The notes under the pieces are model-generated. The model saw only the letters and a list, made by a program, of their open reading frames with translations, did not search any database and had not been told where the DNA came from. From Bordetella sp. H567 (GTDB lineage Bacteria > Pseudomonadota > Gammaproteobacteria > Burkholderiales > Burkholderiaceae_B): DNA of 64,000 nucleotides. Positions 30,497 through 38,113 of the stretch are shown here, piece by piece. Position 1 is the stretch's first letter. The number at the start of each line of letters is the position of its first letter. The stretch lies in the NCBI RefSeq assembly GCF_001704295.1, contig NZ_CP012334.1, positions 5,468,084-5,532,083 of the forward strand, read 5' to 3'. Both the position numbers and the translations under genes were made by a program.

Positions 30497-30500
<4 letters not shown>
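29808..30500 (-). CDS. rsmG: 16S rRNA (guanine527-N7)-methyltransferase RsmG
   Basis: 230 residues. The SAM-binding motif [15 protein letters not shown] is at about residues 92-106, preceded by [13 protein letters not shown] and followed by [10 protein letters not shown]. It methylates G527 of 16S rRNA; loss is known to give low-level streptomycin resistance. It overlaps mnmG and parA by 4 nt on either side, so the chain is translationally coupled. Confidence 0.98.
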
Positions 30501-32413
<1,913 letters not shown>

Positions 32414-32444
32414 GATGTGTGGGGTGAAAGAGCTTTGGTTGGCA

Positions 32445-32450
32445 ATTATA
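32445..32450 (-). promoter_or_regulatory. probable -10 box of the mnmG promoter
   Basis: TATAAT on the minus strand, about 32 nt before the mnmG start codon. The -35 position falls between the nearest parS site (32471-32486) and a CCGCCT/AGGCGG palindrome, and shows no TTGACA match. The promoter may therefore depend on or be affected by bound protein. Confidence 0.6.
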
Positions 32451-32470
32451 GAGGCTCCGCCTGGAGGCGG

Positions 32471-32486
32471 TGTTTCACGTGAAACA
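32471..32486. other. parS site 1
   Basis: A perfect 16-bp palindrome TGTTTCACGTGAAACA, identical to the classical parS consensus. It lies 58 nt before the mnmG start and immediately upstream of the -10 box. Confidence 0.95.
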
Positions 32487-32533
32487 CTGGGTACCCTGCC
32501 CGCTCTTCGGAATGGAAGGCCGGCACTGGATGA

Positions 32534-32549
32534 TGTCTCACGTGGAACA
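32534..32549. other. parS site 2 (imperfect)
   Basis: TGTCTCACGTGGAACA keeps the CACGTG core and the right half-site but has a changed left arm. Centre-to-centre distance to site 1 is 63 bp. Probably a weaker ParB site. Confidence 0.75.
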
Positions 32550-32590
32550 ACGCCCCTTCGCAGGCGCCTCGCCGGCACCACGATAGGGAT

Positions 32591-32606
32591 TGTTTCACGT
32601 GGAACA
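32591..32606. other. parS site 3
   Basis: TGTTTCACGTGGAACA, a near-palindrome with one mismatch between arms. It lies 57 bp from site 2. Confidence 0.92.
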
Positions 32607-33314
32607 TCGGTAAGGCTTCCGTATCTATAAACCGCGAATAACCACCGAAGGCAGCGCCGACATGGCAGGAGACGTCTTGTCTCCACGCCCAACCTTCATG
32701 GTGGCTGCCGCCAGTGCTGCGGGCCCGGAGCCGAGGCTGGCTCCGATCCAGGTCGCTACAGATCGCGATCTCAATGGCATTCCTCCTCCACGCTGGTGGG
32801 AACCGGCCCGATCCCGCGTCTTGCCGAGAGTCCCAGATATCGACTCGTTACGTGCGACCCCTGGGCGACGAACTACGCCCCCTATCTGTCAGCCGACCGC
32901 CTGTAGGCACCTAGGCACCGCCGCTCAGGCGCACCAGATAGCGCGAAGACGGCTAGGCGTCCCTAGCTCTAATGCAATCCACTACGACATACCTGCGACC
33001 GGGGTGCCTACCGCTCGTATAGCGTCTCAGCGTGGGACCATAGCCGCGTCTCGCCCCGCCACTGGCGGCAATAACCGACCTATCCGCCGTCCTATTACAA
33101 CGGGGCCGTCTGCGCTGTGACGGAGCGACGCGTTGTCGCACGTGTTAGCCCGCGCAGGATATACATATAGAGTGGGTACGTCCGACCTGGGAGCGCGTCG
33201 CTATTTTGGGGACTACGCCGGCCGTAAATCTACACTCGCACGTTTCAAGACGGCCGCGCGGATCCGACGGCCCGCAACTGCATAGCGGCGCTAACTAGGG
33301 TGGCCGCCAGCCCA

Positions 33315-34080: not shown

Positions 34081-34443
34081 CTATCCACAGAAGTACCCAC
34101 AAGCCAGCCACCCCCAGCGTCCTTAGATGTACACGCTGGGGATAGTTTTGTGAACAACCGAAGCGACGGGGGATGAAGCCAGAGCGACAGAAGTACGTCC
34201 GGCTCATTGGAGCGGGATAAATTTACAAAAAACGGGGAAAAACAGGGTCCAGCGAGACACCGTGGCTATAGAAATTACCAAACAGCGTGTGCAAACCCCG
34301 GAATACGGATGGATTCCTCCCGCAGACAAAAGGGCACAGGATTGTGAATAACCGCCCTTTGGACCGTACATGCGACGTGGCCCAACGCGACTTATGGACC
34401 ACCCGCCAGCGGATTCCGGGCAGATATCCCAGACTTATGCACA
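34081..34443. other. DnaA-box cluster, candidate oriC element 1
   Basis: Boxes seen: CTATCCACA (34081, plus), GTACCCACA (34093, plus, weak), TTGTTCACA (34149-34157, minus), TTATTCACA (34343-34351, minus, consensus) and TTATGCACA (34435-34443, plus, consensus). An AT-rich stretch at 34216-34243 lies between them and could be a duplex-unwinding element. The cluster lies between parS and the cold-shock gene. Assignment as part of oriC is inference. Confidence 0.6.
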
Positions 34444-34559
34444 GGCTTATTCAACTCACGGAAAACACAACGCCCCAGGGGGCCGGGGTGGCTGCTGGGG
34501 CGATAAAGGCCGGACTCGCCGGCACCGCGCGGAGCGGTGGAATAAGTGTGTGATCTTGC

Positions 34560-34766
34560 TTAAAGCGGCCGGATCTCTGCGGCTTGAGGACCTTTGGGGC
34601 CGTCCTTGACTTCGAACTCCACGTCCTGGCCTTCGTTCAAGCTGCGATAGCCACGCCCCTGAATTGCCGAGAAATGCGCGAAGACGTCGACACCGCCGGC
34701 GTCAGGGGTGATAAACCCATAACCCTTGTCGGCGTTGAACCACTTCACTTTGCCCTTCTGAACCAT
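34560..34766 (-). CDS. cold-shock protein (CspA family)
   Basis: 68 residues, one cold-shock domain. RNP1 (KGYGFITP) and RNP2 (VFAHFSAI) are intact: [20 protein letters not shown] at the start and [20 protein letters not shown] near the end. It binds single-stranded RNA or DNA and melts RNA structure. Its long AT-richer upstream region suggests the usual structured 5' leader. It sits alone between two clusters of DnaA boxes. Confidence 0.97.
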
Positions 34767-35225
34767 TTGTGTAACGTCCTATAAAAACACAATGCTGTGC
34801 GCAGATGCGATTCAAGGACGTTGACGCGAACGTGTTACGACCGATTCCCTCCATGACGCGGCCATGGCTGAAAACACAGGTCTCATGCGAAACGAGACAG
34901 ACGCTCGGCTTGAATACAACGGCGAAACGAGCATACTCAGGCGCGATGAGAGGGACAAATAGTTGTTTACCCCAATGTCGTTTTTTTTTAACTTGGCTCA
35001 CAAGTTCCTGACCGCGACGGCGTCTCCATCGGGCATCTTCGCCCCCACTACAGCGGGCACGCTGGCCGCCCGACGGGACTCTCGTTCCCCGCTGCCGTCC
35101 CCAGGCTTGGGGCCCGCCAGCCTGTCGCCGCGAAGCCTAGGCTTGTCCAACACCGGTGGGATGGTGGGATACTTCCTAACCCTTCACCGTCCCGGTGCTT
35201 TCCTTCCGTCAACACACTACCGACC
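34767..35225. other. divergent region between the cold-shock and aminotransferase genes
   Basis: 459 bp without a gene. It should contain the leader and promoter of the cold-shock gene (leftward) and the promoter of the aminotransferase (rightward). A run of nine or more T lies at 34981. I looked for a SAM or SAH riboswitch before the aminotransferase and saw no convincing match. Confidence 0.5.
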
Positions 35226-36392
35226 ATGATTCGTTCCAAGCTGCCCGACGTCGGCACAACGATTTTTACCGTCATGAGCCGCCTGGCCATCGAACACAAG
35301 GCGATCAACCTGGGCCAGGGCTTCCCTGATTTCAACCCCGATCCCGCACTGCTCGCCCTGGTATCCAAGGCCATGGCTGACGGCCATAACCAGTATCCCT
35401 ATATGCCGGGCGTAGCGCCGCTACGCGAATCCATCGCGAAGAAGACGCAGGCGCTGTACGGTCACGCCTACGACCCGGAAACGGAAATCACGGTTACCAG
35501 TGGCGCCACGGAAGCGCTGATGGCGACGATATTGGCGGCGGTGAATACCGGCGACGAAGTCGTGGTCATCGAGCCTTGCTACGACTCCTACCTGCCGGGC
35601 ATACGCCTGGCCGGCGGCACCGCAGTGCCAGTACCGCTTCGCGCGCCCACGTCGGACGACCCCTACTACCGCATCGATTGGCAGCGCGTGCGCGACGCCA
35701 TCACGCCGAAAACCCGCCTGCTCATGTTGAACTTTCCGCATAACCCCACGGGTGCCATCCTGGAGGATGCCGACCTGGACGCGCTGGAGTCCATCGTGCG
35801 GGATACGGGCGTCCTGCTGGTGTCAGACGAGGTCTACGAACACATCGTTTTCGACGGCCGGCAACACGCCAGCCTGTCGCGTCGCCCCCTGTTGGCCGAG
35901 CATGCGTTCGTGATTTCTTCTTTTGGCAAGACGTATCACACCACGGGATGGAAACTGGGTTATTGCTGCGCGCCCCGCCACTTGACGGCTGAACTGCGCA
36001 AGGTCCATCAATTCATGGTGTTCACCGTACCGTCCCCCATGCAGTTCGCCTATGCCGAATACATGGAAAACCCGGCACCCTACCTGGAGCTGCCGGCATT
36101 CTACCAGGCCAAGCGCGACCGCCTGCAGGCTGGACTGCGGAGCACCCGGTTTCGGCCACTGCCCAGTCCGGGGACGTTTTTCATGATGGCCGACTACAGT
36201 GCGATATCGCAATTACCGGAGGCCGAATTCGCGCGTTGGCTCACGACGGAGCACGGCGTTGCCGTGATACCGATATCGGCCTTCTATCAAATCCCGGATG
36301 CGCCGGAATCGAATCACAAACTGGTCCGCTTCTGCTTTGCCAAACGGGACGAGACGCTGGATCAAGCCCTGGAGCGTTTGAGCCGGGTGTAG
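35226..36392 (+). CDS. PLP-dependent aminotransferase, methionine aminotransferase (YbdL) type
   Basis: 388 residues, fold type I. Seen are INLGQGFPDFNPDP near the N-terminus, TSGATEALMATILA, NFPHNPTGA, VLLVSDEVYEHIVFDG and the PLP lysine in SSFGKTYHTTGWKLGY (about residue 235). This pattern matches YbdL/kynurenine-aminotransferase-like enzymes acting on methionine, glutamine or aromatic amino acids. It is a single-gene unit closed by a strong terminator. Confidence 0.92.
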   Translation: MIRSKLPDVGTTIFTVMSRLAIEHKAINLGQGFPDFNPDPALLALVSKAMADGHNQYPYMPGVAPLRESIAKKTQALYGHAYDPETEITVTSGATEALMATILAAVNTGDEVVVIEPCYDSYLPGIRLAGGTAVPVPLRAPTSDDPYYRIDWQRVRDAITPKTRLLMLNFPHNPTGAILEDADLDALESIVRDTGVLLVSDEVYEHIVFDGRQHASLSRRPLLAEHAFVISSFGKTYHTTGWKLGYCCAPRHLTAELRKVHQFMVFTVPSPMQFAYAEYMENPAPYLELPAFYQAKRDRLQAGLRSTRFRPLPSPGTFFMMADYSAISQLPEAEFARWLTTEHGVAVIPISAFYQIPDAPESNHKLVRFCFAKRDETLDQALERLSRV

Positions 36393-36447: not shown

Positions 36448-36604
36448 CCTGGGGCCCGTAGGAGCCACCACGGGCCTGCATTAGAGCCGGAGGCACTGTG
36501 ACCTCATGTCCAGAAGCAGGAACCGGCTGTGCGAGCGCTTGCGGTCGGATACACCCAACCGTGCTGGTGATGAACCCGTTCGGCCAGGCGCGGCGTGGGT
36601 AGCT

Positions 36605-36843
36605 TAGTGTTTTATATCTTCTCTTCTATATAAAAAGAATGGTGGTAATGGGTGTCTGTGGATAACTGGACAAATCTCAATTCACCAATCCTATCAGGCG
36701 CTTGCGCGAGATATTGGGTGTGCGCTAGCCATGTTTGGACGCGTACGTGAAGTTGAACAACTTCCGGGGGGGCTTCAAACCAGCCGGTTGTTCTCCGCCG
36801 GTCCACAATGTGTGCACAGCCTCCGTAGCAGGGGTTATGCACA
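36605..36843. repeat. origin-like module, copy A
   Basis: An AT-rich block (36609-36640) is followed by a 26-bp sequence (36643-36668) identical to copy B and containing a perfect DnaA box TTATCCACA on the minus strand (36657-36665). Further box-like sites are CGGTCCACA (36799), GTGTGCACA (36810) and a consensus TTATGCACA (36835-36843). Shared words CATGTTTG (36730) and CAACTTCCG (36758) lie at the same offset in copy B, 652 bp away. Confidence 0.8.
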
Positions 36844-37256
36844 GTGCCGCAGGCGTGAACGCAGAATCCGGCGCACATTTCGCCCATCCCGGTGGCCACA
36901 GTGCCCCGGAACACCCCTGCTGCGCGCCACTGCCGCCGGCGTGACAACACCCAGCGGAAAGGCTCGGTTCGCGGCCGCGTCGGCGTAGCGAAGTGTCGAT
37001 TTGTAGCCTGGCAACCCCGGCATCCCGCCCCGACGCCGACAAAGGCCCTGTACGGGGTCTGTACGCGTGCGGCGGTTGTTCCGATACCCCGGACGTCGGG
37101 AACCCTCTTCGAGCGTACCTGCGGGTTCTCAGTGCCCCGTATCCCTATCGGTGAAGCCACTCCCCATCCATGTAGGCCCGGAGCAACTCCAGGGCAGGAA
37201 TGCGAGATAAGCGCGGAGTAGTAACTCCGCATTCGCGGGGGTGGTGGGACGAGAGA
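36844..37256. other. spacer between the two origin-like modules
   Basis: 413 bp with no recognised gene or site. The open frames on the minus strand have no family similarity and read through copy A, so they were not called. Confidence 0.5.
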
Positions 37257-37496
37257 ATGTTTTCACATCTCTTTTCTATATATATAAAGACTAATGGTAA
37301 TGGGTGTCTGTGGATAACTGCATAACTCCGGGAAACTGCGTCGCGACAAGGCCTTGGCGACGTTTGCGCTTGTGCAGGAGTCATGTTTGCCCCGGCGGAC
37401 TTACATGAGCAACTTCCGAGGGCCTTCCTTACGCCGGCTTTATGCCCAAACCATCCACATCGTTTTCACACAGCTTCCCCATAGACGGTATCCACA
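37257..37496. repeat. origin-like module, copy B
   Basis: Collinear with copy A at a nearly constant distance of 652-653 bp. It has an AT-rich block (37258-37294), the identical 26-bp core (37295-37320) with TTATCCACA on the minus strand (37309-37317), and box-like sites CCATCCACA (37451), GTTTTCACA (37462) and GTATCCACA (37488). The outer boxes are less perfect than in copy A, except for the shared core. Confidence 0.8.
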
Positions 37497-37747: not shown

Positions 37748-38113
37748 ATGAAAGCCATTGCGACTTCCCTGTTTGCTACGCTAGTCCTGATGGGCGGTGT
37801 CGCCCACGCGGATCCCACGATCGCCGGCGGCGGATACCCGGACGGCGCCGCCGGCACCCTGCTGGCAGGCAGTGCCGGATCCGACGACGCCGGCCACACC
37901 CTGCTGGCGGGCAGCGACGGATCCGACGATGCCGGCCATACCCTGCTGGCAGGCAACGACGGATCCGACGATGGGCGCCCCACCCTGCTGGCGGGAAGCG
38001 GCGGTACGGACGATACCGGCCAAACGATGCTGGCCGTAGGCGGGGATTCCGGTGATGCCGCCGGCACAATGCTGGCCACCGGCTCCGACGACGGCTCGAC
38101 CCAATTGGCCTGA
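37748..38113 (+). CDS. small secreted protein of 14-residue tandem repeats
   Basis: 121 residues from ATG 37748. A Sec signal peptide (MKAIATSLFATLVLMGGVAH) ends at AHA-DP. After a short stretch (TIAGGGYPDGAAG) six repeats of 14 residues fill the protein: TLLAGSAGSDDAGH, TLLAGSDGSDDAGH and four more divergent copies, encoded by 42-bp DNA repeats at 37856-38110. The spacing of Gly and Asp recalls calcium-binding turns, but it does not match the RTX nonapeptide. No family recognised. It lies directly after origin module B and just before a convergent marR gene. Confidence 0.75.
   Translation: MKAIATSLFATLVLMGGVAHADPTIAGGGYPDGAAGTLLAGSAGSDDAGHTLLAGSDGSDDAGHTLLAGNDGSDDGRPTLLAGSGGTDDTGQTMLAVGGDSGDAAGTMLATGSDDGSTQLA
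37856..38110 (+). repeat. six tandem 42-bp repeats in coding sequence
   Basis: Units start at 37856, 37898, 37940, 37982, 38024 and 38066. The first three are most alike; the last two are degenerate. Unit length is a multiple of three, so copy-number change would keep the frame. Confidence 0.85.

Follow-up and report, generated by a model that had tools for sequence, protein, structure and literature searches.

Two tandem origin-like units at the probable replication origin of Bordetella sp. H567 and their counterparts in other Burkholderiales

The region described here is very probably the replication origin (oriC) of the Bordetella sp. H567 chromosome, and its sequence indicates an origin built as two complete units, named M1 and M2, which lie in the same orientation 652 bp apart. 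The window, that is the whole stretch of 64,000 nucleotides that was analysed, corresponds to positions 5468084-5532083 of a single contig of 5,532,470 bases, and features are given below in window coordinates. For the ability of both copies to start replication, we see about even chances. A wider reading, in which the Alcaligenaceae and a second family of Burkholderiales would possess two or three complete tandem origins, each capable of a start, with one acting as the main origin and the other as a reserve and with the main role having switched during evolution, is proposed only tentatively.

One origin per bacterial chromosome is the textbook rule, and to our knowledge the claims that chromosomes naturally have several origins are based largely on scattered predictions. 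Tandem origins of which each copy is usable would be a standing exception to this rule. Here, a precise duplication has been conserved in several genera and occurs in two families, and its small size would allow copy-by-copy deletion. One-copy lineages beside two-copy lineages provide a natural experiment. The tandem pair would make testable the role of a second origin and the way in which cells stop adjacent origins from firing out of step. It also raises the question of whether origin-calling programs that keep one candidate per genome may have hidden a common arrangement.

Anatomy of the two units

The initial annotation had described a 26-bp word as identical in both copies, and TGGTAATGGGTGTCTGTGGATAACTG indeed starts exactly at 36643 and 37295, with no other site within the window. 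At the composition of the window, 2.9e-6 exact 26-mer repeats are expected per window, so that a repeat of such length would hardly arise by chance. Two shorter shared words were likewise recovered 652 bp apart, CATGTTTG at 36730 and 37382 and CAACTTCCG at 36758 and 37410; these match origin elements conserved throughout the family and are not DnaA boxes as such. Three further DnaA-box-like sites had been proposed to recur at an equal offset. One such pair was found, consisting of the single-mismatch boxes at 36835 (TTATGCACA) and 37488 (GTATCCACA) with an offset of 653 bp, but the others were absent even when two mismatches were allowed.

Viewed from the AT-rich side, the order within a unit is unwinding element, trio-like repeats, GGGTGTC, a DnaA box in the R1 position (TGTGGATAA), an IHF-like core, the inner elements and a convergent DnaA box. 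In M1, the AT-rich unwinding element (36605-36636, plus strand) is conserved in our alignment A1 and is followed by the trio-like repeats (GAATGGTGGTAAT, 36637-36649, plus strand), which are read 3' to 5' from the box and form a run of four NAN after 16 nt. The perfect R1 box at 36657-36665 (TTATCCACA on the minus strand) occupies columns that are invariant or nearly so in A1. A match to the IHF core pattern (TCAGGCGCTTG, 36694-36704, plus strand) is located 37 bp past R1, the inner elements CATGTTTG and CAACTTCCG span 36730-36766 (plus strand), and the convergent box in the R4 position (36835-36843, plus strand, one mismatch) lies at +178 from R1. M2 repeats this arrangement with an unwinding element at 37257-37288 (plus strand), trio-like repeats at 37289-37301 (GACTAATGGTAAT, plus strand; four NAN after 14 nt), a perfect R1 box at 37309-37317 (minus strand), an IHF-like core one base off the pattern and again 37 bp past R1 (ACAAGGCCTTG, 37346-37356, plus strand), the same inner elements at 37382-37418 (plus strand) and an R4 box with one mismatch at 37488-37496 (plus strand, +179 from R1).

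The AT-rich blocks are present before both boxes as had been claimed, and the suggestion of two unwinding elements with their own boxes agrees with this layout. Both blocks together are the two lowest-stability non-overlapping 40-bp stretches of the window, with 42.5 and 42.8 kcal/mol against a mean of 64.1 (sd 4.3) kcal/mol across the window; the least stable stretch starts at 37255 in M2 and the second least stable at 36600 in M1.

The distance between R1 and R4 (178 and 179 bp in the window) is 180 bp in E. coli K-12 when measured likewise. An R4 partner with at most one mismatch is found in 84 of 90 units from 61 Alcaligenaceae loci (71 of them perfect, with spacings of 177-183), against 2 of 420 control boxes located more than 600 bp from any unit. 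The R4 boxes of the window carry one mismatch each, while a perfect R4 is present in 50 of the 61 units of our first set. Putative IHF sites, scored with an IHF core pattern, occur at +20 to +60 in 51 of the 90 units, 44 of which have the site at exactly +38, compared with 33 of 2440 random 42-mers. This pattern has no match in the E. coli stretch from +20 to +62; the known IHF site after R1 in E. coli deviates in sequence from the core pattern. The published trio rule asks for at least three NAN trios no more than 16 nt away from a box that has two mismatches or fewer (available text of PMC8287927). M1 passes this rule only at the 16-nt limit and M2 passes it at 14 nt, and among the first-set units 53 of 61 pass and 8 fail. 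However, 86 of 444 other boxes, a control which includes the units' own R4 boxes, pass as well, so that the rule is loose and constitutes weak evidence.

Alignment of M1 with M2 reveals an identity of 0.538 over 255 columns, which rises to 0.726 near R1 and the unwinding element. The inner 155 bp have an identity of 0.468, compared with 0.265 (sd 0.037, maximum 0.387) for random pairs from the region. The layout is kept amid diverged sequence in relatives, which supports the earlier proposal of selection on an origin layout. A profile trained on relatives without the window scores the two units at 80.0 and 76.7, the next best score being -3.1 among the matches listed in the window. Two ORFs lying beneath the units (36612-37232, minus strand, and 36892-37221, plus strand) gave no Pfam match and were taken as spurious.

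Roles of the two copies

Search with a full-length profile divides the 61 Alcaligenaceae loci into 27 with two units, 1 with three (one of them inverted) and 33 with one. The loci were picked from matching genomes, and in one batch of 20, 10 were picked for having two units; the shares are therefore those of a chosen sample and not population estimates. The 33 loci with one unit indicate that two are not required.

By analogy with E. coli and B. subtilis, DnaA-ATP would bind R1 and R4, IHF would bend the DNA between them, a DnaA filament would extend from R1 onto the trios, the AT-rich DNA would open and the DnaB helicase would be loaded. Either unit should be able to open, and the first to do so would send a fork through the other within about 1 second at common bacterial fork speeds. 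Two starts this close would cost little, and a second DnaA platform might make initiation surer or tune its timing.

Genes located between the units bear on which copy is used. At single-unit loci, the third-position skew of the gene to the right of the unit is positive in 17 of 17 cases (12 phosphoesterase and 5 Fic). Of 11 genes enclosed by two units in the genera g28, g3, g18, g24 and g38, 10 have positive skew, which suggests that M1 is the main start in most lineages with inter-unit genes; in wide-spaced lineages with such right-side skew, M2 may seldom fire. The inter-unit phosphoesterase genes of L037 (Alcaligenes, -0.048) and L163 (Paenalcaligenes, -0.127, a fragment of 133 codons) have negative skew and suggest M2 as the main start in these two. 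An FMN-binding-protein gene, found only between units, has mixed skew (0.009, -0.049, 0.254 and 0.030), and the inter-unit interval of the window, being 392 bp, is too short for a skew reading. This pattern suggests that, in each lineage, replication starts mainly from one copy, while the second persists as a reserve or as a regulatory unit.

The same evidence has to be weighed against a serious rival, to which we assign somewhat less than an even chance, namely that one unit is the origin and the other is a DnaA-regulating site (by datA-like titration, DARS-like reactivation or as an enhancer) which descended from an origin copy and no longer starts replication. The right-side skew of the 10 genes is what would be expected if only M1 started forks. 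However, the skew of the L037 gene and the L163 fragment is opposite, and both copies keep an unwinding element and trio-like repeats, which would be needless for a titration site. Moreover, M2 has the higher profile score in 15 of the 20 untied pairs, with a p value of 0.04 that presupposes independent pairs, a condition from which related genomes depart. The seemingly less used copy is thus not plainly decaying. The datA and DARS sites are box clusters without an unwinding element, away from the origin, whereas here each unit has an unwinding element and both lie where the pooled skew changes sign, as described below. One copy may nevertheless have a regulatory role.

It is improbable that M1 and M2 form a single bipartite origin in the sense of Bacillus subtilis or Helicobacter pylori, the halves of which would act only together via a DnaA-made loop. 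Two DnaA-box clusters close together are a shared feature, and both the limited spacing (358 to 3597 bp at 28 loci; 652 bp in the window) and the fixed orientation suit looping. In those two bacteria the clusters lie around dnaA and one carries the unwinding site, whereas here an unwinding element is present in each cluster and about 27.5 kb separates the pair from dnaA. Further arguments against a bipartite origin are the 33 of 61 loci with one unit and the completeness of both copies, since known bipartite origins are described as requiring only one region for unwinding in vitro (available text of PMC6669920).

The content of the inter-unit interval varies between genera. No gene was found there in some genera, while a Fic-family gene is present in g3, g18, g24 and g38, and a phosphoesterase gene in g28 (together with the FMN-binding-protein gene), in L037 and, as a fragment, in L163; Pfam assignment was made on one example of each gene. 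The Fic/DOC-family gene lies between the units at L038, L039, L043, L164, L169, L196 and L197 (Pfam assignment on the L039 copy) and to the right of the single unit at L051, L178, L186, L187 and L188.

Position of the skew switch and gene neighbourhood

In the genome of Bordetella sp. H567 itself, GC skew was sampled in 20-kb stretches; it is positive in all 10 located between 260 and 2600 kb and negative in all 10 located between 2860 and 5200 kb. This opposite skew of the arms places the origin between about 5.2 Mb and 0.26 Mb, an interval which includes the window. The skew minimum, named in the initial annotation as a check, gives no closer position. Over a contiguous 384 kb around the window the curve is flat; its lowest GC point is at window coordinate 201158, past dnaA by about 136 kb, and a two-mean fit has its best change point at -28.5 kb. 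The skew of this genome was thus abandoned as a precise locator, as it places the origin only within a few hundred kb.

Pooling of the 55 loci with enough flank (of 61) locates the switch more closely. Every 500-bp bin to the left of the units is negative in pooled GC skew and every bin to the right is positive, with 8-kb means of -0.049 (left) and +0.052 (right). GC skew is greater on the right than on the left in 54 of the 55 loci, and TA skew agrees in 41. The initial annotation had raised a minimum beside dnaA as the contrary outcome; the pooled skew puts the replication switch of the family at the units rather than beside dnaA.

We consider it very unlikely that the pair is something else and that the chromosome has its true oriC in another place, either next to dnaA or within the DnaA-box cluster close to mnmG and parS (34081-34443). 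In favour of such a location are the one-mismatch boxes at 34081, 34343 and 34435, the perfect box which 30 of 44 loci carry in the interval from mnmG to the aminotransferase gene and the flat skew curve of the genome around the window. Neither site was retained as the origin, given that the pooled skew flips at the units, with no bin of the wrong sign on either side.

The mnmG ORF, a landmark of the E. coli-type oriC locus, spans 30497-32692 on the minus strand in the mechanical listing, with rsmG, parA and parB next to it. Its true start is probably near 32420, because two parS sites fall inside the listed upstream part. An aminotransferase gene (Aminotran_1_2, 35226-36392, plus strand) is the syntenic neighbour to the left of M1 in the family, and dnaA (C1:451) follows on the right-hand side of the pair, past the contig join. 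Across loci, the recurrent order is parB-parA-rsmG-mnmG, (csp), aminotransferase gene, unit 1 and unit 2, with both units on the same strand; far genes are absent from some loci, which end early. In some genera, about 5 kb of other genes separates the aminotransferase gene from the unit. An rRNA operon had been considered for this place in Bordetella/Achromobacter-like genomes and was rejected, as gene-family comparison shows other genes there, which by eye only appear tricarboxylate-transport-like and two-component-like. At L199 the aminotransferase gene is on the opposite side of the units.

This neighbourhood, together with an unwinding element and with R1 and a convergent R4 at equal distance, makes the locus similar to Escherichia coli oriC, which adjoins mnmG. 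The R1/R4 layout, the unstable AT-rich element and the skew switch (pooled relatives, 54 of 55 loci) are those of an E. coli-type oriC. In contrast to E. coli, where there is one unit, two or three complete tandem units are found here, mnmG is separated from the units by an aminotransferase gene and parS sites, and trio-like repeats are present in place of the E. coli 13-mers.

Several minor features were observed around the pair. Four parS sites are located between mnmG and the aminotransferase gene (32471, 32591, 33315 and 33914). This interval contains parS in 42 of 44 loci and a perfect DnaA box in 30 of the 44, and in the window its boxes are all imperfect, with one mismatch. A cspA thermoregulator-like RNA covers a cold-shock gene at 34520-34888 on the minus strand, with 43.4 bits, which is below the Rfam gathering score of 78. 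Right after M2, an ORF at 37748-38113 encodes a small protein which has a signal-like start and contains tandem repeats of 14 residues (42 bp in the DNA); neither a Pfam match nor a relative in viral contigs was found for it.

Distribution and age of the units

A 64-position model, which misses diverged copies, matches 162 of 268 genomes of the family, 26 of them twice. In an order-wide scan of 300 genomes it matches 8, of which one, a weak match, is outside the family (G362, E 8e-4). All six genomes of the window's genus, which includes Achromobacter aloeverae (G001) and Achromobacter sp. HZ34 (G003), have two copies. Two copies are also found, for example, in Alcaligenes endophyticus (G048), Paenalcaligenes (G050, G237), Candidimonas sp. 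SYP-B2681 (G032) and Pollutimonas (G255, G258). Among the lineages with widely spaced copies are strains of Candidimonas or Pollutimonas, at 2.1-2.7 kb. Genomes with a single copy include Candidimonas humi (G034), Pusillimonas sp. MFBS29 (G059) and Allopusillimonas soli (G017).

Comparison of the copies across species gives an indication of their age. Identities within a position, against those across positions, are 0.850 and 0.780 against 0.563-0.614 in g9, 0.757 and 0.815 against 0.606-0.638 in g42, and 0.631 and 0.652 against 0.469-0.520 in g24. Among G001-G004 of g1, the window's genus, best matches by position reach 0.795-0.898 and 0.760-0.768, against 0.630-0.650 within a genome. This pairing by position points to several pairs that predate their species, with both copies kept. 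It is absent in g28 (0.596-0.722 against 0.584-0.713) and not clear for the window and its nearest relative (G005), and other pairs may be younger or homogenised. A tree of 60 loci implies at least 9 changes in copy number; gain and loss are not distinguishable on it, and 24 of its 57 inner branches are poorly supported. An ancestral pair with only 4 changes, as 41 loci had suggested, was abandoned once this higher number emerged from 60 loci and a search of greater sensitivity. A recent neutral duplication with a functionless second copy, although in line with so many changes, is hardly credible in view of the functional positions kept at 53.8% identity, the by-position pairing which species of g9, g24, g42 and part of g1 display, and the two copies in all six genomes of the genus.

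One locus departs from the usual plan: L199 (G060, g22) has two direct units and a third that is inverted and shortened; the boxes of all three are altered (TGTGCATAA/TTATGCACA) and spaced as usual.

Outside the Alcaligenaceae, 17 regions upstream of mnmG in other families were scanned and the box pair was found in 3. Two of them, from family f7, which we take to be Oxalobacteraceae, follow the origin-unit plan with TAGTAGTAG-type repeats and an R1-R4 distance of 157-159; there are two units 391 bp apart in G066, presumably Collimonas fungivorans, and three in G321. The third region (L248) has a single imperfect pair. A strict pattern search matches 22 of 399 genomes of the order, an undercount, as it needs perfect boxes and misses the window itself; the reversed pattern gave none among the matches listed for the same 399 genomes. 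Seven of the 12 f7 genomes match the strict pattern, each with at least two units. With a model built from f7, f31 and one f51 unit, 117 of 145 f7 genomes match, 24 once, 72 twice and 21 three times (two or three units in 93 of 117). At the 7 f7 loci inspected, the units are on the same strand and 391-900 bp apart, while some pairs in the match listing are inverted (e.g. G782 and G769). The skew over these 7 loci is weak and mixed. In f31, which is probably Burkholderiaceae by our inference, model R2 has 1 to 4 matches per genome in 127 of 150 genomes. These hits were not counted as tandem pairs, many of those listed being far apart or inverted.

The units share with the BUS or DnaA-trio origins (available texts of PMC8287927 and PMC6669920) a DnaA box, a short spacer, repeated trinucleotides and AT-rich DNA, and the f7 units with their TAGTAGTAG repeats extend this likeness. 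The BUS survey, according to its available text, screens to a single candidate in >99% of genomes (PMC8287927), so that a second copy would have gone unreported. Putative double oriCs, with more than one predicted oriC per chromosome, have been described, including one in Ralstonia pickettii of the same order (PMC4403523). Table 1 of that paper contains four chromosomes with copies around two dnaA genes or at far-apart sites, and its text also mentions two elements of P. aeruginosa and, in M. bovis BCG, a large duplication; in the parts available, it reports that there was then no evidence for two functional origins used on one bacterial chromosome. Unlike the present case, neither a conserved tandem pair of complete units nor the Alcaligenaceae appear in these parts. 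A natural single-chromosome Vibrio cholerae strain with what appear to be two functional origins is cited in the available text of PMC10225481. Our literature search covered titles and the start of abstracts, with few subscription journals, and tandem complete oriC units in these bacteria were not found among the matches listed.

Units spread over longer distances were also observed. G805, G904 and other genomes of genus g247 in f31 have three origin-like units over about 165-180 kb in mixed orientation, which is reminiscent of Cupriavidus metallidurans, for which three separate DnaA-box sites over roughly 220 kb are described in the available text of PMC2864759. In a 1.2-Mb genome (G456; L286 and L287), two origin-like units lie about 17 kb apart and are identical over 80 bases, but not just before them.
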